This document shows positions 1 through 20,883 of a stretch of 25,892 nt of DNA, one piece after another. This DNA comes from a virus. The notes beneath the pieces were generated by a model that was not told the DNA's origin, ran no database searches, and saw only the letters and a list, made by a program, of their open reading frames with translations. The first letter of the stretch is position 1, and every line of letters begins with the position of its first letter. The translations under genes and the position numbers were made by a program. Location: IMG/VR virus record IMGVR_UViG_3300031696_000052, positions 1 through 25,892 of that record. One strand, given 5' to 3'.

Positions 1-1
1 G

Positions 2-1030: not shown

Positions 1031-1080
1031 TTTATAAGATTTCTTACTTCTCATAATAAAATATTATCCTAAAAAGAGAG

Positions 1081-1122: not shown

Positions 1123-1123
1123 C

Positions 1124-1867: not shown

Positions 1868-1871
1868 TAGC

Positions 1872-2741: not shown

Positions 2742-2743
2742 TT

Positions 2744-3580
2744 ATGTTTGGACAATATTACCACGGTACAATACGTAAATATATTATAGCATTTGGCAAT
2801 CTTTTTAACGATATTGTTATAGCAAGATTAAATACTGCTGGAGAACGTATACAAGCAATTGAAGTTCCTATTGCGTATGGCCCAAAAGAAAAGTGGTTGG
2901 TTCGTTTAAAGCAAGACCCTAATCTTGAACAGAATATTGGTATTACATTACCTCGTATCGGGTTTGAAATTGTAAGTATGGCTTATGCACCGCAAAGAAA
3001 ACTCGCTTCAACATTACAGAACGCTCATTTAAAAAATTCTGATTTGAATAAATTAAATTCACAGTACACGCCTGTTCCTTACGATTTAAATATTATGCTT
3101 TCTATTTTTGTTAAGAATGCTGACGATGGTGCACAAATACTAGAGCAGATTTTACCATACTTCCGTCCAGAGTTTACAACAAATATTCGCTTGATACCTG
3201 AGATGAATGTTGTTGTTGATACGCCAGTTGTTCTTCAAGATGTCTCAATAGAAGACACGTATGAAGGTGACTTTGATACACGGCGAGCATTAGTATATAA
3301 TTTGAATTTTAATATGAAAGCATATATATATGGTCCAGTGTTCAGTCAAGGTATTATCAAAAGAGCCATTACAAATCTATTTGATGATCTCCCAGCCGAC
3401 GCTGGTAATAAAGTTGAAAAAATAACAGTAAGTGCAGCTCAATATGCTAATGGTGCACCACTCACATCACCATCTGCTAATGCTTCACTATCTGTTGCAA
3501 CAAGTGCAATCAGTGCTAACTCTGATTATGGTTTCTCAATGAACATAGACCAAGATCCTTATAATATGGAAAATTCATAA
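2744..3580 (+). CDS. 15: Tail sheath stabilizer / tail terminator gp15
   Basis: This 278-residue protein is close in length to T4 gp15 (272 residues), the ring that caps the finished tail tube and sheath and joins tail to neck. The start 'MFGQYYHGTIRKYIIAFGNLFNDI', with 'PIAYGPKEKWLVRLKQDP' shortly after, is the recognisable gp15 N-terminus. The last 50 residues are Ala/Ser-rich and low-complexity. The stop overlaps the gene 16 start as TAATG (3578-3582), suggesting translational coupling. Confidence 0.9.
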   Translation: MFGQYYHGTIRKYIIAFGNLFNDIVIARLNTAGERIQAIEVPIAYGPKEKWLVRLKQDPNLEQNIGITLPRIGFEIVSMAYAPQRKLASTLQNAHLKNSDLNKLNSQYTPVPYDLNIMLSIFVKNADDGAQILEQILPYFRPEFTTNIRLIPEMNVVVDTPVVLQDVSIEDTYEGDFDTRRALVYNLNFNMKAYIYGPVFSQGIIKRAITNLFDDLPADAGNKVEKITVSAAQYANGAPLTSPSANASLSVATSAISANSDYGFSMNIDQDPYNMENS

Positions 3581-4008
3581 TGAAAACAAACCTTGAAAAG
3601 AATATGGAATCAATATTCAATTTACCATCTGATACAAAAACAATAGCAGAATCTATTGATGAAACAAAAGAAAGTGTTCCAATAAAAATAATACCAAATG
3701 GCAGTGATGAGGTAATGGATGATTATTATTATGCGAGAGAAAATTTAAAAGAAATTATTTCAAGCGCACAACAATCGATTGCTGACCTATCTTCAATCGC
3801 ATCTACATCAGAATCTCCCCGCGCATACGAAGTTCTCTCTACCATGATGAAAACAATTGTGGATGCAAATAAAGACCTTCTTGAACTTCAAAAGAGTGTA
3901 AAGAAACTTAAAGAAGAAGATAAGAAAGATAACCCTCAAAATGTTACTAACGCTCTTTATGTTGGTTCTACAGGTGATCTAATGAAGTTAATCAAAGATA
4001 ATAACTAA
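3580..4008 (+). CDS. 16: Terminase small subunit gp16
   Basis: This 142-residue protein sits where T4 gp16 (164 residues) lies, directly before the large terminase gene. gp16 forms an oligomer that recognises DNA and stimulates the packaging motor. The sequence is highly charged and helical, with a central stretch from about residue 50 to 115 likely to form the helical oligomerisation core. Small terminases diverge fast, so the call rests mainly on size, helical composition and position. The 3' half lies in front of a minus-strand promoter in the 16/17 gap that would transcribe it in antisense. Confidence 0.82.
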   Translation: MKTNLEKNMESIFNLPSDTKTIAESIDETKESVPIKIIPNGSDEVMDDYYYARENLKEIISSAQQSIADLSSIASTSESPRAYEVLSTMMKTIVDANKDLLELQKSVKKLKEEDKKDNPQNVTNALYVGSTGDLMKLIKDNN

Positions 4009-4018
4009 TCATTCACGC

Positions 4019-4036
4019 GGTACAATACCTATTATA
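4019..4036. repeat. 18-base inverted repeat, copy 1 (partner 16577-16594)
   Basis: GGTACAATACCTATTATA here is the exact reverse complement of 16577-16594. The copy includes a near-palindrome, GGTA-CAA-TACC (4019-4029), and on the minus strand the -10 box TATAAT (4036-4031). The match stops exactly at both ends of the 18 bases. Confidence 0.85.
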
Positions 4037-4058
4037 CTACGTTTAAAATTAATGTCAA
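4031..4058 (-). promoter_or_regulatory. Minus-strand sigma70-type promoter (antisense to gene 16)
   Basis: Read on the minus strand, TTGACA (4058-4053) is followed by a 16-base spacer and TATAAT (4036-4031), a full match to the host-type consensus. The extended -35 CTATTGACAT (4061-4052) is identical to that of the promoter upstream of uvsY. The expected start is near 4024, inside the GGTACAATACC palindrome. It points into gene 16, and no minus-strand gene of useful length lies downstream. Confidence 0.65.
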
Positions 4059-4073
4059 TAGAAAAGTGAAATA

Positions 4074-5705
4074 ATGTCAGAAAATTATCTTGCTAATCCC
4101 AATTTAAAAAAAGCATATGTACCAATTGAATGGACTGAAGAACAAGTCCAAGAAGTTATCAAGTGTTCTAAAGACATCAATTATTTTATTAAAACATATG
4201 TAAAAATTATCAATCTAGATCGTGGTCTTATTAATTTTGAAATGTATCCGTTTCAAGAAGAAATGGCTAATATGATTGCTGATAATAGATTTACAGTTAT
4301 AAAAACTTGCCGTCAGGCTGGTAAAACGACCACATCCGCAGCAGTTGTACTATGGCATGCATTATTCAATGAGTCGTACACGGTAGCGATTCTTGCTAAT
4401 AAACTATCTACTGCCCGAGAGATACTTGCCCGTGTTCAGAGAGCGTTTGAATATCTCCCAAAATGGTTACAGCAGGGTGTGGTCGTTTGGAATAAAACAA
4501 ATATGGAGCTTGAGAACGGTAGTCAGATAATTGCTTCATCAACTGCCTCATCTGCAATTCGTGGTTACTCTATCAACTTTCTATATCTTGATGAATTTGC
4601 ATTTGTGCCTCGTAATATACAAGATGACTTCTTCACTTCAGTCTATCCTACTATTATATCTGGTACAAATACAAAAGTTGTTATTACTTCTACACCAAAC
4701 GGTTTTGATTTGTTTTATAAAATATGGATTAATAGTGTAGAAGGCAGAAACGAATATGCAAACTTTGGAGTTAACTGGTGGGATGTTCCAGGGCGCGATG
4801 AGGATTGGAAAGAAAAAACGATTGCAAATACCAGTGAAGATCAGTTCCGTCAGGAATTTGAAGCTGAGTTTCTTGGTTCCGCTAACACTCTTATCTCGCC
4901 AAATGTATTACGTTCTATTGCATTTACTACTCCAATATCAACACATTACGAGGGTAGTTTAAGTGTATACAAAGAGCCAGTCAAAGATGGTGTGTATTTC
5001 TGCGTTGTAGATACAGCTAGAGGTGTTGGTATTGATGCTTCTGCTTTTGTTATTATTGATGTTGCTTCGGTTCCATATGAGGTCGTTGCTTGTTATAAAA
5101 ACAATATAATTGACCCATTAATATATCCAGAAGTTATTCATAATGTTGTAATAAACTACAATGAAGCATATACATTGGTTGAAATTAACGATAACGGACA
5201 ACAAATAGCTGATATACTACACCATGATTATGAATATGACAACATTATATTTACATCGGTTAAAGGAAGAGCAGGTCAAGTTATTGGTGGTGGTTTTTCA
5301 TCCTCTGTACAACGTGGTGTAAGAACAACAAAACAAGTTAAACGTATTGGTTGTTCTAATGCTAAAACAATGATTGAGAAAGATAAGATCAAATTACACG
5401 ATTTCAATCTTATTAATGAACTTTCTACGTTTATTCAGAAAGGAACATCATACGAGGCTGAAATAGGCGCACATGATGATCTAATAATGTGTATTGTGTT
5501 ATTTGCATGGGCTACAAATCAAGAGTTCTTTAAAGATTTAACTAATACAGACTTTAGAAAGAAACTTATGGAAGATAGAGATAGAATGATTAGTGACGAT
5601 GTACTTCCATTCGGATTTATAGATGATGGAAGTGATATTGAAGAAATAATAAATAAAGAGAATCCAGAATTTTGGAATGGATTTGATTCATCAAACAGAT
5701 GGTGA
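4074..5705 (+). CDS. 17: Terminase large subunit gp17 (packaging ATPase-nuclease)
   Basis: This is the DNA-packaging motor: an N-terminal ATPase drives DNA into the prohead and a C-terminal RNase H-like nuclease cuts the concatemer. It has 543 residues against about 610 in T4. Walker A is CRQAGKTT (about 79-86). Walker B is FLYLDEFAF (169-177), with the catalytic Glu at about 174. A TSTPNG coupling-type motif lies near 205-210. The nuclease acidic residues are visible in VVDTARG (Asp 313), VEIND (around 369-373) and HDDLIM (468-469), so the enzyme looks intact. It is preceded by a 65-base gap with only a weak ribosome-binding site (gaaaag) and no late promoter of its own. Confidence 0.97.
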   Translation: MSENYLANPNLKKAYVPIEWTEEQVQEVIKCSKDINYFIKTYVKIINLDRGLINFEMYPFQEEMANMIADNRFTVIKTCRQAGKTTTSAAVVLWHALFNESYTVAILANKLSTAREILARVQRAFEYLPKWLQQGVVVWNKTNMELENGSQIIASSTASSAIRGYSINFLYLDEFAFVPRNIQDDFFTSVYPTIISGTNTKVVITSTPNGFDLFYKIWINSVEGRNEYANFGVNWWDVPGRDEDWKEKTIANTSEDQFRQEFEAEFLGSANTLISPNVLRSIAFTTPISTHYEGSLSVYKEPVKDGVYFCVVDTARGVGIDASAFVIIDVASVPYEVVACYKNNIIDPLIYPEVIHNVVINYNEAYTLVEINDNGQQIADILHHDYEYDNIIFTSVKGRAGQVIGGGFSSSVQRGVRTTKQVKRIGCSNAKTMIEKDKIKLHDFNLINELSTFIQKGTSYEAEIGAHDDLIMCIVLFAWATNQEFFKDLTNTDFRKKLMEDRDRMISDDVLPFGFIDDGSDIEEIINKENPEFWNGFDSSNRW

Positions 5706-5728
5706 TATCTTGACTAAATCTATCATTT

Positions 5729-5736
5729 TATAAATA
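5729..5736 (+). promoter_or_regulatory. T4-type late promoter (TATAAATA), gene 18
   Basis: This is an exact TATAAATA box extended to TTATAAATAATAATG, 52 bases before the gene 18 start. The same extended form precedes genes 20, 22 and 23. Confidence 0.88.
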
Positions 5737-5787
5737 ATAATGAAAAATAAATAGATTGAATAATTCTATAAAGTAGGAGAATAGACA

Positions 5788-7758: not shown

Positions 7759-7766
7759 TATAAATA
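7759..7766 (+). promoter_or_regulatory. T4-type late promoter (TATAAATA), gene 19
   Basis: This exact TATAAATA box lies immediately after the gene 18 stop and 25 bases before the gene 19 start. The spacing gives a leader of under 20 bases containing GGACTAGGAGA. It allows the tube protein to be made separately from the sheath. Confidence 0.85.
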
Positions 7767-7790
7767 AAGAAAAGGACTAGGAGAAACAAT

Positions 7791-8339: not shown

Positions 8340-8360
8340 AAACAATATTTAATGATATAG

Positions 8361-8388
8361 AAAAAGGGAGCTTCGGTTCCCTTTTTTG
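8361..8388 (+). terminator. Intrinsic terminator after gene 19 (UUCG loop)
   Basis: AAAGGGAGC pairs with GTTCCCTTT (one G-T pair) around a TTCG tetraloop (8372-8375), followed by a T run. It is a textbook intrinsic terminator, 22 bases after the gene 19 stop and just ahead of the gene 20 late promoter. Confidence 0.93.
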
Positions 8389-8401
8389 TTTTTTCACTTA
8401 T

Positions 8402-8409
8402 TATAAATA
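8402..8409 (+). promoter_or_regulatory. T4-type late promoter (TATAAATA), gene 20
   Basis: This is an exact TATAAATA box in the extended form TTATAAATAATAAG, 40 bases before the portal gene and 14 bases after the terminator's T run. Confidence 0.88.
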
Positions 8410-8449
8410 ATAAGAGATAACTTATAGTACAGTATGGGGATTAAATAAT

Positions 8450-10072: not shown

Positions 10073-11310
10073 TGATGTCAGAAATACGTGATGCCAAAAT
10101 TCTTTCGGCAGCAATTAAATATACTGAGAAAAAAATTGCTAATCTAAAAGAAGATTTAGTCTTACCTAATCTCATTGAAGGTCCACAAGGCGATCAAGGT
10201 GTAAAGGGCGATAAGGGAGAAAGAGGCGAACCAGGTGAGTCTGGAAGAATTATCGTCGAATCTCACGGACCAGTAGGACCAAAGGGTGAAACTGGTGATA
10301 CAGGTCCTTCAATTAAAGAAGCAAAAATTGCAGATGGCAAACTCCATTTGATTCGTGAAGACGATCAAATTTTTACTGCTGGTAATGTTGTTGGACCTCG
10401 AGGGGGGCAAGGTACACCTGGCATACAAGGAGAACGTGGTGGCCAAGGCGATCAAGGATTACTTGGAGAGCAAGGATTAATTGGGCCACAGGGTCTTGTT
10501 GGCGCAAAGGGTGATAAAGGTGATAAGGGAGACCAAGGAGATCAGGGACCAAAAGGTTTTGTTGGTTTGCAGGGCAATGATGGACTAGTAGGACCAAAAG
10601 GCGATATAGGTGATGTTGGTGCAAAAGGCGATAAAGGTGACGCAGGAGATATAGGCAAATCTGGTCCTATTGGCCCACAAGGATCAGATGGACCAATTGG
10701 ACCTGAAGGACCAGTAGGACGAGACGGTACTGAAGTAGATGTTGCTACGATAAAGAAATCAATTGAAGATGATCTTACTGGATTTCGAAATCAAATAAGC
10801 ACTCAGGTATCAAGAATTGCTATGAGTAGCGGTGGGGGCGGTGAAGTTTGGTTACATCGTCTTAATGATGTAGATTATAGTTCAACAAAAACTCCATCAA
10901 ACGGACAGACCCTTGTCTATAGTACTTCCAAAGGTAAATGGGAAGCAGGTTCATCAGCTTCAGGACTTACTATTAAAGAAGAAGGTACATTGGTTGGTAA
11001 TACGGTCAATGAAATTAATTTTATTGGAGCAACTGTAACCGCTTCTGGTAATAATACGCAAATAACAATTAATTCCAATCCAGACTCTTATTATGCAGCA
11101 AACACGTATGTCAACATATTATTATCAAATACAAATACAAGTATTGCAAGTAAGATTAGTTCTGCTAATGTAGCAATAACCACCAATGCTTCTAGTATCA
11201 CCACAACACAAGATGATGTTGCATTGGACGATAAAGCACTCGTAAATCCAGATGGTTTTGTTACATTAAATATTGGTGGAACATCATATAAATTGCCTTA
11301 CTTTAGTTAA
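10072..11310 (+). CDS. Collagen-like virion protein
   Basis: This 412-residue protein has an N-terminal helical part (1-35), then Gly-X-Y collagen-like repeats in three blocks (about 37-58, 66-79 and 108-219) separated by short non-collagen segments. A Gly-rich linker (near 253-257) leads to a beta-type C-terminal domain with 'LNDVDYSS' and 'GQTLVYSTSKGKWEAG', a pattern common in phage fibre proteins. Collagen-like stretches in phages usually form trimeric rods in fibres or head appendages, so a virion rod or fibre is inferred. Its place between the portal and prohead-core genes, and start overlap with gene 20, suggest a head or neck location, but a tail fibre is possible. Two ATG codons are adjacent (10072 and 10075). 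Confidence 0.8.
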   Translation: MMSEIRDAKILSAAIKYTEKKIANLKEDLVLPNLIEGPQGDQGVKGDKGERGEPGESGRIIVESHGPVGPKGETGDTGPSIKEAKIADGKLHLIREDDQIFTAGNVVGPRGGQGTPGIQGERGGQGDQGLLGEQGLIGPQGLVGAKGDKGDKGDQGDQGPKGFVGLQGNDGLVGPKGDIGDVGAKGDKGDAGDIGKSGPIGPQGSDGPIGPEGPVGRDGTEVDVATIKKSIEDDLTGFRNQISTQVSRIAMSSGGGGEVWLHRLNDVDYSSTKTPSNGQTLVYSTSKGKWEAGSSASGLTIKEEGTLVGNTVNEINFIGATVTASGNNTQITINSNPDSYYAANTYVNILLSNTNTSIASKISSANVAITTNASSITTTQDDVALDDKALVNPDGFVTLNIGGTSYKLPYFS

Positions 11311-11312
11311 AT

Positions 11313-11320
11313 TATAAATA
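11313..11320 (+). promoter_or_regulatory. T4-type late promoter (TATAAATA), prohead-core genes
   Basis: This is an exact TATAAATA box (TTATAAATAATG) 29 bases before the GTG start at 11349 of the gp67-like gene. It probably serves the whole 11349-13075 run up to gene 21. Confidence 0.85.
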
Positions 11321-11348
11321 ATGTAGTAAATATTAAATGGAGGTCGTA

Positions 11349-11555
11349 GTGACAGATAGTATTAAAGATGCGATTATTGCTTTACAGAATGGAGAATCAA
11401 GTCAGTTTAAAGCAGCTATTAGTGATTCAATAATGAATAAAGCAATGGGCGCAATCAACATTGAAAAAATTAGTGCTGGTCAAAAATTCTTTGATCAACC
11501 TGAAAATAATTCATACGACTCAGAGCAAGAGGATATGAGAGATGAAGAAGTTTAA
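11349..11555 (+). CDS. 67: Prohead core protein, gp67-like
   Basis: This is a 68-residue acidic protein starting 'MTDSIKDAIIALQNGESSQF' and ending in a Glu/Asp-rich tail. I choose the GTG at 11349 because an ideal GGAGG (11339-11343) lies six bases before it; the in-frame ATG at 11337 overlaps that ribosome-binding site and has none of its own. T4 gp67 is a similar small, acidic prohead-core protein located between the portal and gene 68, and marine relatives have short proteins of this type here. Sequence similarity to T4 gp67 itself is weak, so the name rests on position, size and composition. It overlaps the next gene by 14 bases. Confidence 0.65.
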   Translation: MTDSIKDAIIALQNGESSQFKAAISDSIMNKAMGAINIEKISAGQKFFDQPENNSYDSEQEDMRDEEV

Positions 11556-12102
11556 AGACCTATTTGAAGAAATAGCTGCAGACCAAAAAATACCAAAGGG
11601 TCAGAAGAAACCAGAGAAATACTTGAAGCCAGTATCAAAAGGTGAACAAGAATTTGCTGATATGCATAAAGTAGATAAGAAAGACTATCCTCTCGGAAAC
11701 GATGATATTTACACTGGCGACCATAAAGGTCCAAAGGAAGATTCTAATCAAGTAGGTGGTAAAACTAAAAAAGGCGAGCCAATCTTAAAGACGTATAAGT
11801 CTATGACTGGGGGAAAATCTTCAAAGCGTTCTGCCGATAAATCACAGGGTGATATGAAAGCAGTAATGCAAGGTTCTTCTAAAGTTTCAGAAGAAGTTGA
11901 ATATATCGACGAAGCATTTAGTGCTGGTACTCTCAAACTGAAATCTGGTGAAACGGTAAAGGTTGATGAAGCTGCTGCTAAAGCTCTCAATGCTGCTATT
12001 GGCCAACTCAGTGGTGCAAACAAAAAGCGAATGGAAACTGAAGCTATGAAAGATAAGAAATCTTTGATGAGTATGGTTAAATTCGCTAAGTCTGCAATGT
12101 AA
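11542..12102 (+). CDS. Putative prohead core protein (gp68 position)
   Basis: This 186-residue, Lys/Glu-rich, largely disordered protein begins 'MKKFKDLFEEIAADQK', a start type common in small virion-core proteins of marine T4-like phages. The C-terminal 60 residues ('TLKLKSGETVKVDEAAAKALNAA', then 'NKKRMETEAMKDKKSLMSMVKFA') form a compact block that I recall from other structural proteins of this phage group. 'YIDE|AFSAG' (around residue 128) fits the Ile/Leu-X-Glu consensus of the gp21 protease, consistent with a core protein that is cleaved during maturation. T4 has gene 68 here, but I see no clear similarity to gp68, so no symbol is given. Confidence 0.55.
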   Translation: MKKFKDLFEEIAADQKIPKGQKKPEKYLKPVSKGEQEFADMHKVDKKDYPLGNDDIYTGDHKGPKEDSNQVGGKTKKGEPILKTYKSMTGGKSSKRSADKSQGDMKAVMQGSSKVSEEVEYIDEAFSAGTLKLKSGETVKVDEAAAKALNAAIGQLSGANKKRMETEAMKDKKSLMSMVKFAKSAM

Positions 12103-12112
12103 GGAATAAACC

Positions 12113-12415
12113 ATGAAAATTAGACCTATCACAAATGCTGTCTCACTGAGTAGTGCAACGACTGTTAATGGAGCTACTGCAGTTCTTGTTCTCAATACTG
12201 GGACTACAGATCGAACAATAACTGTTGCTAATACAGTCTCTGCTGCAAGTGGTGGGGGACAATATGGTATACCTGCTGGCATTTCCTCATCAGCATCAGT
12301 TACTCTTGTTGGTGTTAAAGGTGCGACAATGATTATCAATAAAAAACCAACAGATACAATTAACGGTGGTAACGCAGAAGTTAAGGGCACTGGCATTGCT
12401 CAAAGCGGAGAATAA
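12113..12415 (+). CDS. Conserved small phage protein of unknown function
   Basis: This 100-residue protein beginning 'MKIRPITNAVSLSSATTVNG' is rich in Thr, Ala, Gly and Val, and its pattern suggests an all-beta fold. 'KGATMIINKKPTDTI' near the end is a further recognisable segment. Proteins with this start and size occur just before the prohead protease gene in marine T4-like phages, from memory, but I know of no assigned role. The position between core protein and protease, under the same late promoter, suggests a minor head or virion component. An AAGGAA ribosome-binding site (12102-12107) precedes ATG, and gene 21 starts four bases after the stop. Confidence 0.6.
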   Translation: MKIRPITNAVSLSSATTVNGATAVLVLNTGTTDRTITVANTVSAASGGGQYGIPAGISSSASVTLVGVKGATMIINKKPTDTINGGNAEVKGTGIAQSGE

Positions 12416-12418
12416 CAA

Positions 12419-13075
12419 ATGAAACTCATTACAGAGATACATGATCAAGAAATTCAGATCATCACCGAAGCAAAAGAAGACGGTGGTAAAAACTATTTCA
12501 TTGAAGGTGTTTTCATGCAGGGAGATGTTAAGAACCGTAATGGTCGCATCTATCCTATGCAAACTCTCATAAAAGAAGTTGATCGTTATAATAAAGAATA
12601 CGTTAAAGAAAACCGTGCTTATGGAGAACTTGGTCATCCACAAGGTCCGACAATCAATCTCGAACGTGTTTCGCATATGATTAAAGAACTCCATCAAGAT
12701 GGTTCAAATATCATGGGCAGAGCTAAGATTATGTCTGAAACGCCTATGGGCAATATTGTTAAGAACCTCATGGATGAAGGTGCTAAACTTGGCGTATCTT
12801 CTCGTGGTATGGGTACTCTTCGCCAGAAAAATGGCGTCAATGAAGTTCAAGGCGATTTCCAACTAGCAACTGCTGCTGATATTGTTGCAGATCCTTCTGC
12901 TCCCAATGCTTTCGTTGAAGGTGTTATGGAAGGCGTAGAGTGGATACAAAATGTCAATGGTAGCTGGGTCTCGCAATATATTGAAGAGACACAAGAAGAG
13001 ATACGTAGTGCGTCTAAAAAAGACCTACAAGAAGCAAAGTTTAGAGCATTTACAAAGTTTTTACAGAAACTCTAA
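12419..13075 (+). CDS. 21: Prohead core protease gp21
   Basis: This serine protease cleaves the scaffold and capsid proteins at Ile/Leu-X-Glu sites during prohead maturation; 218 residues against 212 in T4. The family features are 'FIEGVFMQGDVKNRNGRIYP' (27-46), catalytic His 73 in 'AYGELGHP', catalytic Ser in 'LGVSSRGMG' (127 or 128), and 'PSAPNAFV' further on, all matching T4 counterparts (GELNHP, GVSSRG, PSAPDAWV). The fold is the herpesvirus-assemblin type. The gene directly follows the small unknown protein and ends before the late promoter of its main substrate, gp22. Confidence 0.95.
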   Translation: MKLITEIHDQEIQIITEAKEDGGKNYFIEGVFMQGDVKNRNGRIYPMQTLIKEVDRYNKEYVKENRAYGELGHPQGPTINLERVSHMIKELHQDGSNIMGRAKIMSETPMGNIVKNLMDEGAKLGVSSRGMGTLRQKNGVNEVQGDFQLATAADIVADPSAPNAFVEGVMEGVEWIQNVNGSWVSQYIEETQEEIRSASKKDLQEAKFRAFTKFLQKL

Positions 13076-13087
13076 AAGATAATTTTT

Positions 13088-13095
13088 TATAAATA
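13088..13095 (+). promoter_or_regulatory. T4-type late promoter (TATAAATA), gene 22
   Basis: This exact TATAAATA box in the extended form TTATAAATAATAATG lies 49 bases before the gene 22 start. The 15-base element is identical to that before gene 18. Confidence 0.88.
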
Positions 13096-13144
13096 ATAAT
13101 GAAATTGAAAACATAATTGAATATTTCAATAAGGAGATAACAAG

Positions 13145-14224
13145 ATGTCCGAAGCACAAGTACAAGAAATCGATATGGAAGCTGAGGTTCTTGATACTGA
13201 AGATGAAAATCTTTTAGAGTTCAAGGCAAGTTTGGGCGACCAATCGGAAGTTCCGGAGCCAACTGCAAAGAAGGCTGACGAAAAGAAAAAAGGCAAAGGT
13301 GATGCTATGCCTAAGTTAAAGACAAAAGCTGGCATGATTAATGCTACTGTTCAAGCTATGTCTAAAATGAAAAAAACTGATCTACAAGCAACTTATGGTA
13401 AGATGTTTAGTGAAGATTCTGATCTTGAAGAAGTAGAAGTATTTGAAGGCGAAGATGCACCACGTGCTCTTACATCAATTACTGCTGCTGATATTGACAT
13501 CTCAGAAGATGTTGATGCAATCTTTAATGGTTCTGATCTTACAGAAGATCATAAAGAAAAAATTCAAACAGTGTTTGAAGCTGCTGTAATTGCAAAAGTC
13601 AACGAAGAAATCGCAAAATTTGCCGTTGAAGTTGAGTCTGATGCAGAAGCAACGAATGTTGAGATTGTAGACGAACTTACTGAAAAAGTAGATTCCTATC
13701 TTGATTACGTTGTTCAAGAGTGGGTTGAAGAAAATAAACTTGCTATCGAAACTGGTGTTCGCGCCGACATGGTAGAAGATTTCCTTCATGGTCTAAAAGG
13801 TCTATTCACAGAACATTATGTTGATGTTCCTGAAGAGAAAGTCGATGTTGTTGAAGAACTTATTTCTAAAGTTGAAGAACTTGAGTCTAAGTTAGACAAA
13901 CAAATTGATGAAAATGTTGAACTTTCCAGTCAAGTTAAAAGTGCTGTAAAAGAATCAGTTTTTTCAGAATCGACAGACGAACTTACTGATACGCAAGTTG
14001 AAAAACTTCGTGGTCTTGCAGAAGGTATTGAGTTTGACTCAGCAGAATTATTTGCTAAGAAAATTTCAATGCTCAAAGCTCAGTATTTTGATGTGATTGA
14101 TGAAGCAGTTTCTACAGTCATTGTCGACGATGAGAATGATCCCGTTGCTCTTGAAGAAGAAAAAAATACAACTGGGCCCATGGCTAACTATATGAGTGCT
14201 ATTTCAAGATCCGTTACAAAATAG
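13145..14224 (+). CDS. 22: Major prohead scaffold protein gp22
   Basis: This is the core scaffold around which the capsid shell assembles and which the protease degrades before packaging. It has 359 residues, longer than T4 gp22 (269). It is strongly acidic, nearly all helical, and has a coiled-coil-like heptad stretch near residues 233-262 ('VEELISKVEELESKLDKQID'). The start ATG follows AAGGAGA. Position directly between protease and capsid gene, acidity and helicity identify it; scaffold sequences are otherwise poorly conserved. The extra N-terminal 130 residues include a Lys-rich patch (near 38-60) and could hold additional protease sites. Confidence 0.88.
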   Translation: MSEAQVQEIDMEAEVLDTEDENLLEFKASLGDQSEVPEPTAKKADEKKKGKGDAMPKLKTKAGMINATVQAMSKMKKTDLQATYGKMFSEDSDLEEVEVFEGEDAPRALTSITAADIDISEDVDAIFNGSDLTEDHKEKIQTVFEAAVIAKVNEEIAKFAVEVESDAEATNVEIVDELTEKVDSYLDYVVQEWVEENKLAIETGVRADMVEDFLHGLKGLFTEHYVDVPEEKVDVVEELISKVEELESKLDKQIDENVELSSQVKSAVKESVFSESTDELTDTQVEKLRGLAEGIEFDSAELFAKKISMLKAQYFDVIDEAVSTVIVDDENDPVALEEEKNTTGPMANYMSAISRSVTK

Positions 14225-14230
14225 ATTTAT

Positions 14231-14238
14231 TATAAATA
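14231..14238 (+). promoter_or_regulatory. T4-type late promoter (TATAAATA), gene 23
   Basis: This exact TATAAATA box (TTATAAATAATTAATG) lies 40 bases before the major capsid gene and six bases after the gene 22 stop. It is followed by the strong ribosome-binding site TAAGGAGA. Confidence 0.9.
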
Positions 14239-14278
14239 ATTAATGAAGATGATATTAATACCGTAAGGAGAGAATCTA

Positions 14279-15643
14279 ATGTTTTTATCTGAAGAACTAC
14301 AAAAGAAGTGGGCACCAGTAATCGAGCACCCCGATCTTGGAGAAATTAAAGATCCACATCGTCGTGCAGTTACCGCAACACTTCTTGAGAACCAAGAAAT
14401 AGCTGCTCGCGAAGGCGCTGGCGGCACAGGTGGATACCAAGAGCCAACGCTATTGGGCGAAGCCGCACCAACTAACGCAACAGGCGGCAACATTGATAAC
14501 TTTGATCCAGTACTTATTTCACTGGTTCGTCGTTCAATGCCAAATCTAATTGCATATGACGTTGCTGGCGTTCAGCCAATGACTGGTCCAACTGGACTTA
14601 TCTTTGCAATGCGTCCACAGTACAAAGAACAAGGTGGTACTGAAGCACTTTATAACGAAGCTATTACATCGTTTGCTGCTTCTGCTAACAACGATGCTAC
14701 GTTCTCTACTCGTACTCCTGGTCGTGACCAAACCCAAGCTGGTGCAACTGCACAGGCTGGTAGCGATCCAACCTCACGTGCTTCTGGTTCTGGCTACACA
14801 GTCACACCTGGTATGGCGACAGCTAGTGCTGAAGCTCTTGGCGATGCTGCTGGAAACCATTTCTCAGAAATGGCATTCTCAATCGAGAAGATTTCCGTAA
14901 CTGCAGTTTCTCGTGCTCTTAAAGCTGAGTACACGATGGAATTGGCTCAAGACCTTAAAGCTATCCATGGTCTAGATGCTGAAACAGAATTAAGCAACAT
15001 TCTTTCTGCTGAAATTCTTGCTGAGATCAACCGTGAAGTTGTTCGTACTATCAACTACACAGCTACTGCTGGTGCTCAAGAAAATACAACTACTGCTGGT
15101 ACTTTCGACCTTGATGTCGATGCTAACGGTCGTTGGTCAGTTGAGCGTTTCAAAGGTTTAGTATTCCAAATCGAGCGTGAAGCAAATAAAATTGCTAAAG
15201 ATACTCGCCGCGGAAAAGGCAACATCATGATTTGTGGTTCGGACGTTGCGTCTGCTCTTCAAATGGCTGGTGTTCTTGACTATACTCCTGCTCTTAGCGT
15301 AAACTTGAATGTTGATGACACAGGTAATACTTTTGCTGGTGTTCTTAACGGTCGTATGAAAGTCTATGTAGACCCATACTTCTCAAGTGCTTCTGGAAAC
15401 CAGTATGCTACAATCGGTTACAAAGGCGCAAGTGCTTTTGATGCTGGTATGTTCTATTGCCCATATGTTCCATTGCAAATGGTTCGTGCAGTTGGTGAGC
15501 AGAGCTTCCAACCTAAAATTGGCTTTAAGACTCGTTACGGCATTGTTGCTAATCCATTCGCAACAACTGGTGCTAACGGTGTTATTTCTAGCCAACAGAA
15601 GAACATCTATTACCGCATTATGGCAATCGCCAACTTGATGTAA
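14279..15643 (+). CDS. 23: Major capsid protein gp23
   Basis: This is the HK97-fold shell subunit, 454 residues against 521 in T4. The segment 'LVRRSMPNLIAYDVAGVQPM' followed by TGPTG matches the strongly conserved T4 region (VRRAIPNLIAFDICGVQPMNSPTG). A likely maturation site is 'PTLLGE|AAPTN', after Glu 61, which fits the Leu-X-Glu rule of gp21 and the T4 cleavage after residue 65. The C-terminus 'FKTRYGIVANPFA' is also typical. Own late promoter, strong ribosome-binding site and terminator make it a separate, highly expressed unit. Codon use is biased towards 'gct' and 'ctt/ctg' endings, as expected for an abundant protein. Confidence 0.97.
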   Translation: MFLSEELQKKWAPVIEHPDLGEIKDPHRRAVTATLLENQEIAAREGAGGTGGYQEPTLLGEAAPTNATGGNIDNFDPVLISLVRRSMPNLIAYDVAGVQPMTGPTGLIFAMRPQYKEQGGTEALYNEAITSFAASANNDATFSTRTPGRDQTQAGATAQAGSDPTSRASGSGYTVTPGMATASAEALGDAAGNHFSEMAFSIEKISVTAVSRALKAEYTMELAQDLKAIHGLDAETELSNILSAEILAEINREVVRTINYTATAGAQENTTTAGTFDLDVDANGRWSVERFKGLVFQIEREANKIAKDTRRGKGNIMICGSDVASALQMAGVLDYTPALSVNLNVDDTGNTFAGVLNGRMKVYVDPYFSSASGNQYATIGYKGASAFDAGMFYCPYVPLQMVRAVGEQSFQPKIGFKTRYGIVANPFATTGANGVISSQQKNIYYRIMAIANLM

Positions 15644-15673
15644 TATATGTTTCAATAATAAGAAACTAAAATT

Positions 15674-15708
15674 AGAGGGTAGCCTTAAAAAGCTTCCCTC
15701 TTTTTTTG
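15674..15708 (+). terminator. Intrinsic terminator after gene 23
   Basis: AGAGGGTAGC (15674-15683) pairs with GCTTCCCTCT (15692-15701) with one T-T mismatch, around an eight-base loop, and leads into a long T run. It lies 30 bases after the capsid gene stop. Confidence 0.9.
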
Positions 15709-15721
15709 TCTTTTTCATCAT

Positions 15722-15729
15722 TATAAATA
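15722..15729 (+). promoter_or_regulatory. T4-type late promoter (TATAAATA), genes 15765-16549
   Basis: This exact TATAAATA box (TTATAAATAATAG) lies shortly after the gene 23 terminator and 35 bases before the first ATG of the following two-gene unit. Confidence 0.85.
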
Positions 15730-15764
15730 ATAGTGTTAGGGAATAGATTAACGAAGTGCATACT

Positions 15765-16019
15765 ATGATAATGATAAGAAAAACAATCGTTACATTAGAT
15801 TTGCTATACTACATGCCTGACTATGAAAATATAGTACAAACTTTCTTTTGGCAAACAAATGATGTAACTCCTGATTTTCCTAGAATAAACAAATTTTTAG
15901 ATTACTGGGATGAGCATATAGAAGCAAAGATTGCAGAAGCTAACATAGCATATGTGTACCAAGATAAAGTACGGTATAAAAAAGCAGACTTTGAAGGAAA
16001 AATAGGAACATGGCACTAA
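15765..16019 (+). CDS. Conserved small T4-like phage protein, unknown function
   Basis: This 84-residue protein contains 'LDLLYYMPDYENIVQTFFWQ' and 'PDFPRINKFLDYWDEHIEAK', a Trp/Tyr-rich helical pattern. I recall similar short proteins directly after the capsid gene in marine T4-like phages but know of no role. I choose ATG 15765 (an alternative ATG lies at 15771, and a GTG at 15756 is possible); no strong ribosome-binding site decides between them. The gene overlaps the tube-like gene by 10 bases (16010-16019), so the two are probably translated together from the late promoter at 15722, which suggests a tail or virion assembly function. Confidence 0.6.
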   Translation: MIMIRKTIVTLDLLYYMPDYENIVQTFFWQTNDVTPDFPRINKFLDYWDEHIEAKIAEANIAYVYQDKVRYKKADFEGKIGTWH

Positions 16020-16549
16020 TACCAAAAATCGGAGTTAACGCTGGTGATCCACCAGTAACATCTGTTACGCAAAATGTAAACTTTTTATCGCCACTTGGTT
16101 TTAGATTCCTGCTGTCACGGACTCCAAACGTACAGTACTTCTGTCAGTCTGCAACATTACCAACAATCTCTATGCAAGAACTAATTCAACCAACACCTTT
16201 TACACAACTACCAAGACCTGGAGACAAGATTACATATGAACCCCTAACTCTTCGTTTTCGCATAGATGAGAATATGACTAACTATCTTGAAATTTTTAAC
16301 TGGATAAAAGAACTTGCCAAACCAGAAAATTTTCAACAGTATGCTAAACACAATAATGTTTCTGATGGCAGCATATTAGTCCTTTCTTCTAACAACAATC
16401 CTAAGATTCGTATTGCTTTTGAAGATATGTTCCCACTATCGTTATCGCCACTAAATTTTGATGTGACACAAGCTGACGTTGAATATCTAGAAGCTGATGT
16501 TATGTTCCGTTATAAATTATTTACAGTAGAGCAGTTATTAATCACGTAA
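16010..16549 (+). CDS. Tail-tube-fold protein of the gp19/gp54 family
   Basis: This 179-residue protein has features of the T4 tail-tube family. 'YEPLTLRFRIDENMTNYLEIFNWIKEL' (cut here across the motif, about residues 77-104) resembles the gp54 segment with R.D...NY....W. 'IAFEDMFPLSLSPLNFD' and 'ADVMFRYKLFTVEQL' match the C-terminal strands. It is therefore a second tube-like protein besides gp19. It may be a baseplate-tube initiator, a tail-tip adaptor or a tail-completion protein; marine T4-like genomes often list gene 3 (tail completion) in this place, but I cannot confirm that identity. T4 gp54 is longer (about 320 residues). A ribosome-binding site (AAGGAAAA) precedes ATG inside the preceding gene. 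Confidence 0.7.
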   Translation: MALIPKIGVNAGDPPVTSVTQNVNFLSPLGFRFLLSRTPNVQYFCQSATLPTISMQELIQPTPFTQLPRPGDKITYEPLTLRFRIDENMTNYLEIFNWIKELAKPENFQQYAKHNNVSDGSILVLSSNNNPKIRIAFEDMFPLSLSPLNFDVTQADVEYLEADVMFRYKLFTVEQLLIT

Positions 16550-16554
16550 ATCTA

Positions 16555-16582
16555 TTGACATATTTTATAAAGTTGTTATAAT
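16555..16582 (+). promoter_or_regulatory. Sigma70-type promoter 1 upstream of uvsY
   Basis: TTGACA (16555-16560), a 16-base spacer and TATAAT (16577-16582) give a full match to the host consensus. The extended -35 is CTATTGACAT. The start near 16589 falls inside the GGTATTGTACC palindrome. The same architecture occurs on the minus strand at 4058-4031. Confidence 0.88.
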
Positions 16583-16594
16583 AGGTATTGTACC
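16577..16594. repeat. 18-base inverted repeat, copy 2 (partner 4019-4036)
   Basis: TATAATAGGTATTGTACC is the exact reverse complement of 4019-4036. It comprises the -10 box of promoter 1 and the near-palindrome GGTA-TTG-TACC (16584-16594) over the expected start site, where an operator would lie. Confidence 0.85.
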
Positions 16595-16631
16595 TTATTG
16601 AACTTAATAATATTTAATTTAGATTAATCTA

Positions 16632-16660
16632 TTGACTTAACTTAAACTATTAGTTATAAT
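16632..16660 (+). promoter_or_regulatory. Sigma70-type promoter 2 upstream of uvsY
   Basis: TTGACT (16632-16637), a 17-base spacer and TATAAT (16655-16660). It shares the CTATTGAC -35 context with promoter 1 but has no GGTATTGTACC palindrome. The start near 16667 leaves a leader of about 18 bases carrying GGAG before the uvsY ATG at 16685. Confidence 0.88.
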
Positions 16661-16684
16661 GAGTAATATTGATTTGGAGATATT

Positions 16685-17122
16685 ATGAAACTTGAAGATA
16701 TTATTAATATGTGGCAAGAAGATGTAAAGATTGATGAGACAGAGCTTTCTCGTGAAAGTATCAATACACCTATCTTACATGGTAAGTACTTAAAACATTT
16801 CTCAGAACAGAGACTCAAACTACGCAGTCTCAAACTCAAGCACAAACAACTTCATCAAAAACTATTGGATTATTATAGAGGTGATCTAAATAACCCAGAG
16901 GATCTTGCTGAGTTAGGCAGAGAACCTTATCCATTTAAGCGTTTGAAATCTGACATAAATTACTATGTAGATTCAGATAAAGATATGGTCGAGTTAAACG
17001 TAAAGATTGCATATCAATCAGAGCTAGTTGAAGTGCTTGAAGAAATAATGAAAAATATTAATATGCGTGGGTTTGTAATTAAGAATAGTATAGATTTTCT
17101 TAGATTCACAAATGGCAGCTAG
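16685..17122 (+). CDS. uvsY: Recombination mediator UvsY
   Basis: UvsY loads the UvsX recombinase onto single-stranded DNA by displacing gp32, supporting recombination-dependent replication and repair. The 145 residues match T4 UvsY (137) along the length: 'MKLEDIINMWQEDVKID' at the start (T4 MRLEDLQEELKKDVFID), 'LLDYYRGD' in the middle, 'VDSDKDMVELNVKIAYQ', and 'MRGFVIKNSIDFLRF' at the end (T4 SRGFAIKHIQDMRAF). It heads the recombination block behind two sigma70-type promoters with a GGAGA ribosome-binding site. The uvsX gene is not in this window. Confidence 0.95.
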   Translation: MKLEDIINMWQEDVKIDETELSRESINTPILHGKYLKHFSEQRLKLRSLKLKHKQLHQKLLDYYRGDLNNPEDLAELGREPYPFKRLKSDINYYVDSDKDMVELNVKIAYQSELVEVLEEIMKNINMRGFVIKNSIDFLRFTNGS

Positions 17123-17131
17123 GATTAAAAC

Positions 17132-17302
17132 ATGAGTATTAATCAATTAACAATGTTTAAATTGTGGGGTGATTTTGATGAAAATAATGATAATGGATGG
17201 AGTGAATATGAATTAAAAGTTATGAATGAAAATAGAGATGCAATGCGTCCTGTTGGATTTAAACAATCAGCCGAAAAAAAGGAAATAGACTCTATAATAT
17301 AA
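17132..17302 (+). CDS. Small protein of unknown function between uvsY and uvsW
   Basis: This 56-residue open frame starts 'MSINQLTMFKLWGDFDENND', contains 'GWSEYELKVMNENRDAMRPV', and ends at 17302. An AGGA ribosome-binding site (17121-17124) lies seven bases before ATG, and it fits tightly after uvsY (nine bases) and before uvsW (26 bases), which supports it as a real gene. I do not recognise the family. T4 has very small genes around uvsY and uvsW, so a small accessory protein here is not surprising, but no similarity to those is visible. Confidence 0.6.
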   Translation: MSINQLTMFKLWGDFDENNDNGWSEYELKVMNENRDAMRPVGFKQSAEKKEIDSII

Positions 17303-17328
17303 AAGACAGTGAATGTCTAATAAAATGA

Positions 17329-18816
17329 ATGAAGTATCACCCACAGTTTCTAATAGATAATAGCGTGGAACATAGTAAGTTGATTATTAAAAAAGTGAAT
17401 GAAGTTTACATGAAGATAGAATCGGAAGCAGTTATCCGACAAGAACTCAATGACTTCTTTTCCTTTGCAGTCCCTGGTGCTAAATTTATGCCGGCATATA
17501 AATCGAGAATGTGGGATGGTAAGGTAAGATTGTTTGATGCCATGACCAAACACTTATATCTTGGTCTTCTTCCTTATGTAGAACACTTTGCATCTGAGCG
17601 CGAATATACTATTGAAGCGAGTGAAGAAATACATTCTCAAGAAAATTATTCATTAGACGAAGGTAAAAAGTTTATTGAAAAATTACAACTCAAACTTACA
17701 CCACGTGACTACCAAATAGATTCGTTTGTTTATTGCATTCGTAATAATCGTTCAGTAATCGTATCTCCCACTGCTTCTGGTAAGTCGTTAATTATATACT
17801 TGCTTGTACAATATTATCAAAAGAAAACTTTACTTATTGTACCGACTGTATCTCTTGTGCACCAAATGCGTTCTGATTTTATGGATTACGGTATGCATGA
17901 AGATGATATTCATATAATAATGGGTGGTGAAGAAAAGAGAAGCGATGCTCCAATAATCATATCTACATGGCAATCAATATACAAGATGCGTAAAGATTAT
18001 TTTGCACAGTTTGATATTGTTATTGGCGATGAGTGTCATTTGTTTAAAGCAAAGTCTCTCACTTCTATTATGACAAAACTTGTTGATTGTAAGTATAGAT
18101 TTGGATTTACAGGCACACTCGACGGCACGGAAACTAATAAGCTAGTGCTTGAAGGGTTGTTTGGTAAAGCAAAGCAATTTGTCAAAACAAAAGAATTGAT
18201 TGATGCTAATCATCTATCTGCTTTTAAGATTAAATGTCTCGTACTCAAGCACAAAGATGAAGAAAAAAAATTAGTCAGTAAAATGAATTATCAAGATGAG
18301 ATTGATTATATTGTTAGTAATAACAGACGGAATGTTTTTATAAAAAATCTCGCAGTATCATTAAATGGAAATACACTACTACTATTTCAATATGTTGATA
18401 AACATGGGAGGATACTATATGACAAAATCTCAGAATCAGTTGATAAAGATAGAAAAGTGTTTTTCGTATATGGAGGAACCGATGCGCAGACTCGCGAACA
18501 AATCAGGGCAATTACTGAAGAGGAACGAGATGCGATCATCGTTGCATCCTATGGTACATTCAGCACTGGGATTAATATCCGCAATCTTCATAATATTATT
18601 TTTGCTTCTCCCACTAAGTCTCGTATACGTAATCTTCAGTCTATTGGGAGAGGGTTACGAAAGGGGGACAATAAAGATCAAGCAGTTCTCTTTGATATTT
18701 CGGACGACCTTCGGCATAAAGCCAAAGTAAACTATACGCTCAATCATTTTTCTGAACGAGTAAAAATATACAACTCAGAAGAATTTGAATACAAAATATA
18801 TAATATTAACTTATAA
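17329..18816 (+). CDS. uvsW: RNA-DNA and DNA helicase UvsW
   Basis: This superfamily 2 helicase unwinds branched DNA and R-loops and, in T4, helps switch replication from origin- to recombination-dependent mode. It has 495 residues, close to T4. Before the helicase core lies the small DNA-binding domain with 'DFFSFAVPGAKFMPAYK' and 'WDGKVRLFD' (T4 WDGRIRLLD). Motif I is SPTASGKS (146-153), motif II GDECHLF (DECH, 234-237), motif III FTGTL, and later motifs include 'SYGTFSTGINIRNLHNI' and 'LQSIGRGLRKG' (motif VI). The start is ATG 17329, chosen because the T4 N-terminus aligns with sequence upstream of the next in-frame ATG (17407); its ribosome-binding site is poor. Confidence 0.95.
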   Translation: MKYHPQFLIDNSVEHSKLIIKKVNEVYMKIESEAVIRQELNDFFSFAVPGAKFMPAYKSRMWDGKVRLFDAMTKHLYLGLLPYVEHFASEREYTIEASEEIHSQENYSLDEGKKFIEKLQLKLTPRDYQIDSFVYCIRNNRSVIVSPTASGKSLIIYLLVQYYQKKTLLIVPTVSLVHQMRSDFMDYGMHEDDIHIIMGGEEKRSDAPIIISTWQSIYKMRKDYFAQFDIVIGDECHLFKAKSLTSIMTKLVDCKYRFGFTGTLDGTETNKLVLEGLFGKAKQFVKTKELIDANHLSAFKIKCLVLKHKDEEKKLVSKMNYQDEIDYIVSNNRRNVFIKNLAVSLNGNTLLLFQYVDKHGRILYDKISESVDKDRKVFFVYGGTDAQTREQIRAITEEERDAIIVASYGTFSTGINIRNLHNIIFASPTKSRIRNLQSIGRGLRKGDNKDQAVLFDISDDLRHKAKVNYTLNHFSERVKIYNSEEFEYKIYNINL

Positions 18817-18821
18817 AAAGG

Positions 18822-18850
18822 TTGACATATACACATGGATATAGTATATT
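18822..18850 (+). promoter_or_regulatory. Sigma70-type promoter overlapping the start of the 18835 gene
   Basis: TTGACA (18822-18827), a 17-base spacer and TATATT (18845-18850), directly after uvsW. Its predicted start (near 18857) is inside the next gene, downstream of that gene's ATG, so it would serve gene 55 and the genes beyond. The -35 context GGTTGACAT is shared with the promoter at 24832. Confidence 0.6.
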
Positions 18851-19239
18851 TAAAATTGGTTAGTGGAGAAAGCATCATATCTTATGTGGAAACAATAGAT
18901 GAGGAATATGTTCAAGCATATAAACCTGTACAATTACACACTATTAATTCTATGGATGGGGCGTTAATAAGAACAACAAAATGGATTCCATTTACTGATC
19001 AAAATGATTTTCCAATCAAAGTAAAAAATATATTGCTGATTGCAACACCAACAAAAGAAATTGAAAAATATTATATTAGATCATTGGAAGTATTAGACAG
19101 TAAAGAAGAAGATTATCTTTTAGAAGAAAAAGAAGATTGGGATGAAGTGTTCTACGATGAGGATGAAGATGGTTGGGACGAAGAAACTGTACACGCTTTT
19201 AATGAATTGGCTGCAAATAATCAAATAAAGGTGCATTAA
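18835..19239 (+). CDS. Acidic protein of unknown function, possible Sm-like N-terminal fold
   Basis: This 134-residue protein opens with 'MDIVYLKLVSGESIISYVE', a 'V-L-SGE-I' strand pattern reminiscent of Sm/Lsm-type small beta barrels, though this is only a visual resemblance. The last 45 residues are extremely acidic ('DWDEVFYDEDEDGWDEE'). A gene of this type often sits between uvsW and 55 in marine T4-like phages, from memory, without assigned function. The ribosome-binding site is unusually distant (AAGG about 13 bases before ATG), and a sigma70-type promoter overlaps the start codon region. It ends three bases before gene 55. Confidence 0.6.
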   Translation: MDIVYLKLVSGESIISYVETIDEEYVQAYKPVQLHTINSMDGALIRTTKWIPFTDQNDFPIKVKNILLIATPTKEIEKYYIRSLEVLDSKEEDYLLEEKEDWDEVFYDEDEDGWDEETVHAFNELAANNQIKVH

Positions 19240-19242
19240 ATT

Positions 19243-19803
19243 ATGGTAAAGAAAAAGAAACAGCATTACGTTAATAATAAAGATTTTCTCGCGGCAATGA
19301 TTGTATTTCGCGATGGCGTCATTGAAGCAAAAGCAAATGATGATGGTCGACCACGTGTCCCACATTATGTTGGTGAATGTCTTATGAAAATTGCTGTTCA
19401 CCTTTCTCATAAGCCAAACTTCTCTGGTTACACATATAAAGAAGATATGATTAGTGATGGTATTGAAAATTGCCTTCTTTACATTGATAACTTTGATCCA
19501 GAAAAATCTTCTAATCCTTTTGCTTACTTCACACAAATCATCTATTATGCATTTCTTCGTCGTATTGCTAAAGAGAAAAAAGTTTTGTATACAAAGTTGA
19601 AATATACAGAAGAAAGTTATGCTCTTAATATGAACAACTCTACTCAAGAAGGTGACACAACAGATTATTCACCTCCAAGTAAAGTAAACGAATGGTCTAA
19701 TGAATATGTTGATAACTTCATTGAAGCGTTTGAAGAAAACAAACGTAAAAAGAAAATCAATAAAGACACGACTCCAGTTGATCAATTGATTAACGACGAA
19801 TAG
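19243..19803 (+). CDS. 55: Late-transcription sigma factor gp55
   Basis: gp55 replaces the host sigma on RNA polymerase and recognises TATAAATA late promoters. The 186 residues match T4 gp55 (185): 'HYVNNKDFLAAMI' (8-20; T4 NYVNNKELLQAII), 'FSGYTYKEDMISDGIENCL' (60-78; T4 has SGYT and EMIADGIEASI) and 'FAYFTQIIYYAFLRRIAKEKK' in the sigma region 2-like part. The eight matching promoters in this window fit. The C-terminus (TTPVDQLINDE) is less hydrophobic than the T4 clamp-binding end (SLDFLYE), so sliding-clamp contact may be altered. An AAAGG sits about 11 bases before ATG. Confidence 0.93.
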   Translation: MVKKKKQHYVNNKDFLAAMIVFRDGVIEAKANDDGRPRVPHYVGECLMKIAVHLSHKPNFSGYTYKEDMISDGIENCLLYIDNFDPEKSSNPFAYFTQIIYYAFLRRIAKEKKVLYTKLKYTEESYALNMNNSTQEGDTTDYSPPSKVNEWSNEYVDNFIEAFEENKRKKKINKDTTPVDQLINDE

Positions 19804-19812
19804 GAAATTGTA

Positions 19813-20883
19813 ATGACAAAAGCTGCTCTTATCACAGATACACATTTTGGTGTGCGTAATGATAGTAAACAGTTCCTTGACTTTTTTGATAAGTTTTATA
19901 CTAACGTATTCTTTCCTTATTTAAAAGAGAATAACATTAAGACTATATTCCATCTTGGTGATATTGTTGATAGGCGTAAGTTTATCAGCTACGTTACTTT
20001 AAACGAATTCAAAAGAATCTTCATTGATCGCCTTGCTGAATTTGGTATAACAATGCATGTAATTGTCGGTAACCACGATATTCCTTTTCGTAACACCAAT
20101 GAAGTCAATGCGATGGATGAGTTGTTTAGTAGAGATAATATCCACGTCTATTCTGAACCCTCAGACATAGAATATTGTGGTGTTGATATAACAATGATAC
20201 CATGGATTCAAGGCACAAACTTCAATCAGTGTATGGATCATATGGCTAATACAAAATCACAGATATTGTTTGGTCATCTTGAATTGAATGGTTTTGAGAT
20301 GCATCGTGGTTCTCCTGTAAATCATGGTGGTATGGATACTAAGCCTTTCGATAAATTTGATATGGTATGTTCTGGTCACTTTCATCATAAATCTTCTAAA
20401 GGTAACATTCATTATCTTGGAAATCCGTATGAGTTAACATGGAATGATTATAATGATCAACGTGGTTTTCATATATTTGATTCTGAAAAAAGATCATTGA
20501 CATTTCATCAAAATCCATATAGAATGTTTACTAAGGTGTGGTATGATGATGTTGATACTACACTGGATGATATTATTGGAAAACATAACTTTGAAGATTA
20601 TAAGGATACATATATAAAAGTTATTGTTCAAAACAAAAAGAACCCATATTGGTTCGATACATTCCTGGATAATCTATACAAAGCTAATCCAGCTGATGTG
20701 TCTATCGTTGAAGATAATAAACATATGGATACTCAATCTGACGAAGAGATTTTCAATGAAGCAGAAGATACTCTTACATCATTGTATAAGTTTGTTGATG
20801 GTATGGAAACTGATGTTGATAAACAAAAGCTAAATCAATTGTTTGCTAACTTATATACTGAAGCTCAATCTATGGAGATATAA
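19813..20883 (+). CDS. 47: Recombination endonuclease subunit gp47 (Mre11-like)
   Basis: This is the nuclease subunit of the gp46/gp47 complex (SbcD/Mre11 family), which resects DNA ends for recombination and degrades host DNA. It has 356 residues against 339 in T4. Metallophosphoesterase motifs are complete: DTHFG (9-13), GDIVDRR (49-55), GNHD (86-89), 'FGHLELNG' and GHFHH, with the metal-binding Asp, His and Asn residues all present. The C-terminal part ends 'LNQLFANLYTEAQSMEI', parallel to the T4 end. The stop overlaps the gene 46 start as TAATG (20881-20885), which should keep the two subunits in balance. Confidence 0.96.
   Translation: MTKAALITDTHFGVRNDSKQFLDFFDKFYTNVFFPYLKENNIKTIFHLGDIVDRRKFISYVTLNEFKRIFIDRLAEFGITMHVIVGNHDIPFRNTNEVNAMDELFSRDNIHVYSEPSDIEYCGVDITMIPWIQGTNFNQCMDHMANTKSQILFGHLELNGFEMHRGSPVNHGGMDTKPFDKFDMVCSGHFHHKSSKGNIHYLGNPYELTWNDYNDQRGFHIFDSEKRSLTFHQNPYRMFTKVWYDDVDTTLDDIIGKHNFEDYKDTYIKVIVQNKKNPYWFDTFLDNLYKANPADVSIVEDNKHMDTQSDEEIFNEAEDTLTSLYKFVDGMETDVDKQKLNQLFANLYTEAQSMEI

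Follow-up and report, generated by a model that had tools for sequence, protein, structure and literature searches.

Inverted copies of a predicted early promoter with a compensated start-site palindrome in uncultured T4-like phages

Two loci of a phage fragment, the gap between the terminase genes gp16 and gp17 and the region upstream of uvsY, carry in opposite orientation what looks like the same promoter, with the same short palindrome over its expected start. The question that they raise is whether this palindrome is a fixed operator through which one regulator acts on both, as the initial annotation had proposed, or whether something else about it is conserved. The window (the whole stretch of 25,892 nucleotides analysed here) comes from an uncultured T4-like phage, of whose genome it covers the gp13 to gp46 region, with genes in the order gp13, gp14, gp3, gp16, gp17, gp18, gp19, gp20, a collagen-like gene, the gp21-23 region, a gp19 paralogue, uvsY, uvsW, gp55, gp47 and onward. 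Since the T4 core genes are in their usual order, the window belongs with the T4-like (Kyanoviridae-related) phages; among isolates, Pelagibacter phage Mosig and the Methylophilales Melnitz phages come closest to it, with ~54-55% identity in gp17. The collagen-like gene is a 412-aa ORF downstream of the portal gene (10072-11310) with Gly-X-Y repeats and a 9-nt periodicity. The second tail-tube (gp19-like) paralogue, at 16010-16549 between gp23 and uvsY, lies directly upstream of the sense cassette and also occurs in relatives. The features of the two loci are:

3580..4008, plus strand: gp16, terminase small subunit (PHROG 445, E 2.6e-32)
4019..4029, minus strand (4029-4019): start-site palindrome of PA, GGTATTGTACC
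4031..4058, minus strand: PA, predicted antisense promoter in the gp16/gp17 gap, TTGACA-16-TATAAT, 12/12 consensus
4074..5705, plus strand: gp17, terminase large subunit, left end of the late-gene block (PHROG 2, E 2.4e-67)
16555..16582, plus strand: PB, predicted sigma70-type early promoter upstream of uvsY, TTGACA-16-TATAAT, 12/12 consensus
16584..16594, plus strand: start-site palindrome of PB, GGTA-TTG-TACC (AGGTA/TACCT with flanks), again GGTATTGTACC
16595..16684, plus strand: A+T-rich leader from PB to uvsY (82-85% A+T, 99.5-99.9th percentile of the window)
16632..16660, plus strand: second, tandem promoter upstream of uvsY, TTGACT-17-TATAAT
16685..17122, plus strand: uvsY, recombination mediator, first gene downstream of PB (PHROG 231, E 9.7e-41)

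At both sites the layout read from the sequence is TTGACA, a 16-nt spacer, TATAAT, an A and GGTATTGTACC, with the boxes of PB at 16555-16560 and 16577-16582 and those of PA, on the minus strand, at 4058-4053 and 4036-4031; both have the sequence of a sigma70-type early promoter (TTGACA and TATAAT, 16-18 nt apart). The 18-mer TATAATAGGTATTGTACC at 16577-16594 matches the reverse complement of 4019-4036 exactly, and the repeat with an identical −35 box at equal 16-nt spacing, as first described, is exact at both loci. With the +1 position placed from the box spacing, GGTATTGTACC does lie as a near-palindrome over the expected transcription start, its axis at PB falling ~7 nt past the −10 box, on the predicted +1; the further claim that other promoters lack this element holds for the tandem promoter at 16632-16660. 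The longest inverted repeat of the window pairs 16551-16594 with 4019-4062 (44 nt, 82%). Only the PA and PB copies match GGTANNNTACC in the window, whereas 0.19 sites are expected per shuffled window and two sites or more occurred in 2 of 100 shuffled windows. PA and PB are likewise the only 12/12 consensus matches among the 75 sigma70-like matches in 1-20000; as 73 matches are expected overall, the weaker ones carry little meaning. The 16-nt spacers of PA and PB have a similarity of 0.50, and copies from different phages average 0.42: since the spacers are hardly more alike than between phages, the shared boxes and palindrome do not appear to be merely the product of a recent duplication.

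Capsid and tail genes form a block that runs from gp17 as far as the gp19 paralogue; the two cassettes flank it, and both are oriented outward. PA points into gp16, through which its predicted transcript would run antisense, and the ORF list has no minus-strand ORF of at least 50 aa from ~2424 to 4019, the first 1.5 kb beyond PA; the sequence behind PA is not A+T-rich (66th-75th percentile). At 4030-4036 of the plus strand TATAATA reads TATTATA on the opposite strand, so that the gp16/17 cassette could fire toward gp17 too and be bidirectional.

Homologous loci of relatives (~0.82 Mb) were collected via UvsY and gp17 protein homology, without use of the motif; because these loci are fragments, few genomes hold several copies. 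A scan of all loci yielded ~46 distinct copies of the promoter family at recurring sites:

In the gp16/17 gap: antisense in every case
Downstream of the gp19 paralogue: sense, with iscA, other genes or uvsY following
Between an Sm-like gene (PHROG 471, PF16243) and gp55: antisense, including the Mosig copy (AACGG-TGT-CCGTT)
Upstream of a gene of 342-344 aa, which we take to be a putative gp61 primase: sense
At a gp4-like (PF08722) gene: antisense to it

In nearly all copies the palindrome axis lies ~7 nt after the −10 box. PB is conserved in L005, L022, L024, L051 and other relatives; PA is kept, antisense and in the same orientation, in every gap-reaching locus with gp17 at least 74% identical, and the antisense promoter is absent from loci with gp17 identity of 58% or less. 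Copies at the gp16/17 site hardly differ in the −35 box, in TATAATAG and in a central TTG close to the predicted start, but do differ at the intervening positions. Mosig has a single variant copy, at the gp55 site; seven cyanophages have no convincing family member, and in RB49 and Melnitz the pattern is matched without the palindrome. One common form of the cassette was found on 48 viral contigs versus 3 bacterial contigs in 257 Gb of bacterial genomes, and with those 3 matches only, a host-wide regulatory site was rejected. A search for GGTATTGTACC in the ~0.82 Mb of relatives returned 3 distinct contexts, all of them right after TATAATN. These results support a promoter and dyad cassette common to both loci that is phage-borne, tied to promoters and conserved in relatives.

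The genes behind the uvsY-site cassette vary among relatives. An IscA-like Fe-S gene (PF01521) stands directly behind the same cassette at two genome places (L026:9467-9772 and L008:2864-3169), which suggests that cassette and gene possibly travel together. A small ORF behind the palindrome (ATGAAT...) was considered and rejected as inconsistent among relatives.

In the relatives' sequences, conservation attaches not to GGTATTGTACC itself but to the presence of a palindrome that has its centre on the predicted +1. The arm pairs seen across clades are GGTA/TACC, AGGC/GCCT, AGACT/AGTCT and AGCT/AGCT, and the palindromes at the gp16/17 site include GGTA-TTG-TACC, AGGT-TGTT-ACCT, AGGA-CTTG-TCCT, ATAGACT-TTGT-AGTCTAT, AATAGGC-CTTGA-GCCTATT, AATAGCT-TTGAC-AGCTATT and ATAGACC-TTGTG-GGTCTAT. 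In a half-swap test on 14 elements there were 68 stem pairs, compared with 38.9 after exchange of the right halves (0 of 20,000 shuffles, P below 5e-5). In a second set, found with a pattern leaving two arm positions per side open, the outer free pair was formed in 15 of 16 elements versus 8.9 expected (P = 0.00025); the inner free pair, which is usually part of the loop, had no such agreement. The half-swap effect is weaker at the gp55 site (P = 0.016), where several members lack a palindrome. Of 93 promoters, 37 have a palindrome at the start-site offset; most other offsets give 7-17, and one adjacent offset gives 23. Since the relatives keep the mirror symmetry while the letters change, the symmetry itself seems to matter. 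GGTA-N3-TACC as a fixed, conserved operator thus had to be abandoned: the arms change with compensation between clades, and copies differ within G001 and G011. The initial annotation had held that its reading would fall if relatives kept the boxes and lost the palindrome; this is the case for the sequence of the palindrome, but not for its symmetry.

The arms can also be compared between sites. In the four contigs that include both the gp16/17 and the uvsY site, the arms agree in the window and G035 and nearly so in G001, but not in G011; in G001 these two copies have GGC...GCC and a third has GGTA...TACC. One arm sequence per genome is accordingly the rule in the window and most clades, with G011 and the third copy of G001 as exceptions. 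Between the two sites the agreement of arms is 0.86 within clades versus 0.36 between clades, where some clade pairs are inferred ones, with separate contigs matched through their sample or through protein identity. For pairs with diverged spacers the corresponding values are 0.79 and 0.38 (P = 0.0045), with a spacer similarity of 0.56 versus 0.43. Three clades have almost the same cassette, over its whole length, at both sites, so that copying from one site to the other happens as well. The uvsY-site cassettes L005:5914-5940 and the L024 stretch match otherwise, with the palindrome and ~10 following bases exchanged as a block.

The explanation that we rank first, tentatively and at somewhat less than an even chance, is that the start-site repeat is the operator of a co-evolving homodimeric regulator. 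The sequence, position, orientation and conservation of the cassettes, the covariation of the arms and their agreement between sites are observed here; we infer as follows that the promoters are active, where +1 lies, that a protein binds, in which direction it regulates and what effect, if any, the antisense RNA has. PA and PB would be strong early promoters for host sigma70, inverted and directed away from the late block gp17-gp23; PB would drive the uvsY recombination operon, and PA would produce an early non-coding transcript that is antisense to gp16 and to the genes preceding it. The inverted repeat of 11-13 bp in both promoters, with its axis on the predicted transcription start, would be bound, in competition with RNA polymerase, by a regulator that acts as a homodimer and is probably a repressor or timing factor of the phage, so that the uvsY operon and the antisense RNA would be switched together; the letters of the operator would drift between phage clades along with the specificity of the regulator.

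That the arms agree from site to site points to a factor acting in trans. The operator reading is also supported by the perfect boxes at both sites, the phage-specific class, the fixed boxes and TTG with variable arms, the compensated palindrome, its position preference and the sharing of arms despite diverged spacers, and the dyad overlaps the promoter start as in repressor operators. Lambda-type dyads and mycobacteriophage stoperators, the latter a dispersed system, are similar in being repeated sites over an early-promoter start whose letters differ between related phages; unlike in phage repressor operators, no repressor is known here, and a single genome can have copies with different arms. 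The sites of stoperators are asymmetric (PMC9283540). The proposal of a single regulator for both loci therefore stands in part: the arms are equal at the two sites in most clades, but no regulator gene was recognised in the window, and among 36 small ORFs from G001, which covers at most half of a genome, no DNA-binding repressor family was found. To our knowledge, T4 does not use such a repressor. Symmetric change within one genome (G001, G011) suits base pairing better than protein recognition, and short-tract gene conversion could be another source of the agreement between sites.

The main rival, ranked second and in our judgement possible but rather unlikely, is a start-site stem-loop of the PeSL kind, in which self-complementarity would be what is selected, either as a hairpin in upstream read-through RNA (which has both arms, RNA started at +1 having the 3′ arm only) or as a DNA hairpin during initiation. 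Mismatches of the G-U and A-C types, an asymmetry between which would separate RNA from DNA hairpins, are few among the copies. Base pairing is suggested by the compensated change of the arms, also inside one genome, and the stems of some copies are longer, up to 8 bp into the −10 box (L109, L107), or are accompanied by T-runs at uvsY/iscA sites (L125, L045, L027). The PeSL (promoter-early stem-loop) cassettes of T4-like phages, from Arbiol 2010 and Comeau 2014 as cited in PMC4503421, are likewise small sigma70-type promoters with a stem-loop, repeated in T4-like genomes and adjoined by gene exchange, and a strong sigma70 promoter with a stem-loop is indeed repeated in the present genome; iscA behind the cassette at two places recalls their gene shuffling. 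As far as this comparison goes (it rests on the citing paper, the RB49 sequence and general knowledge), our family is set apart by the place and size of the dyad, which is short, centred on +1 and usually without a T-run, by its sites in core-gene gaps and by its frequent antisense use. In RB49 (L130), which also speaks for a stem-loop, the minus-strand TTGACA promoters at 7646, 13016 and 46800 (reverse-complement coordinates) have the −10 box in a hairpin loop or stem; these hairpins of 8-13 bp, one of them followed by a T-run, are longer than the present dyads and centred on the −10 box.

Stem-loop formation is made less attractive by the weakness of the RNA hairpins (−1.1 and −2.7 kcal/mol for the window copies), and insulation from read-through makes little sense at antisense copies. 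Strong intrinsic terminators of the window lie at 8360-8387 after gp19 and at ~15675-15707 after gp23, one with a TTCG loop, and 3′ of each there is a late-promoter-like sequence, TTATAAATAATA (stretches 8360-8415 and ~15675-15735). As the phage has these proper terminators and the hairpins are weak and mostly without a T-run, a terminator is unlikely for the window copies, where the sequence test did not support one, unlike in PeSL; T-runs do occur in some relatives. T4 late promoters of gene e and others lie within inhibitory hairpins, and since the start is inside the hairpin, local transcripts lack one arm (PMC3014915), as would be the case here; those hairpins hide a ribosome site, whereas the present ones contain none and the promoter is of the sigma70 type.

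R-loop replication origins, whose transcripts would prime leading-strand synthesis with PA as an early antisense primer opposite the late genes, are in our opinion unlikely. In T4, oriF coincides with the promoter of uvsY and includes an A+T-rich unwinding element, and an early promoter is apparently needed for oriE (PMC3016281); PB similarly has at uvsY a leader in the top 0.5% of the window for A+T, early transcription opposite late genes is predicted here, and there is no gene behind PA. PB differs from oriF in having a TTGACA box, not a middle-mode (MotA) promoter, and a palindrome at +1, which an origin leaves unexplained; moreover, the stretch behind PA is of ordinary composition, there is no clear replication skew switch, and the leader of PB may be plain intergenic DNA. 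Slightly less probable still, antisense control by PA would silence gp16 and the upstream late genes early, with the palindrome a by-product of promoter geometry: the conserved antisense orientation at the gp16/17 gap and before gp55 is consistent with it, but neither the compensated palindrome nor the sense copies are accounted for. We regard it as the least probable that this is a recombination cassette maintained chiefly through gene conversion and palindrome-templated mutation, in which the palindrome would have little part in regulation. The identity of whole cassettes between sites in three clades and the block exchange between L005 and L024 argue for it, while the start-site position, fixed across many clades with unrelated arms, argues against it.

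These results identify a family of promoters in T4-like phages that are uncultured and mostly aquatic, and provide a sequence rule for locating early promoters in them. They also reveal a conserved predicted antisense early promoter inside core packaging genes, where we know of none described, and the compensated start-site palindrome is a clear, testable puzzle about their early control. It is conceivable, if doubtful, that this is a promoter class in which self-complementarity at the start site, and not sequence, serves as the conserved control element, and that outward-facing inverted pairs around the late genes would couple the expression of recombination genes to a conserved RNA that is antisense to the terminase small-subunit gene.
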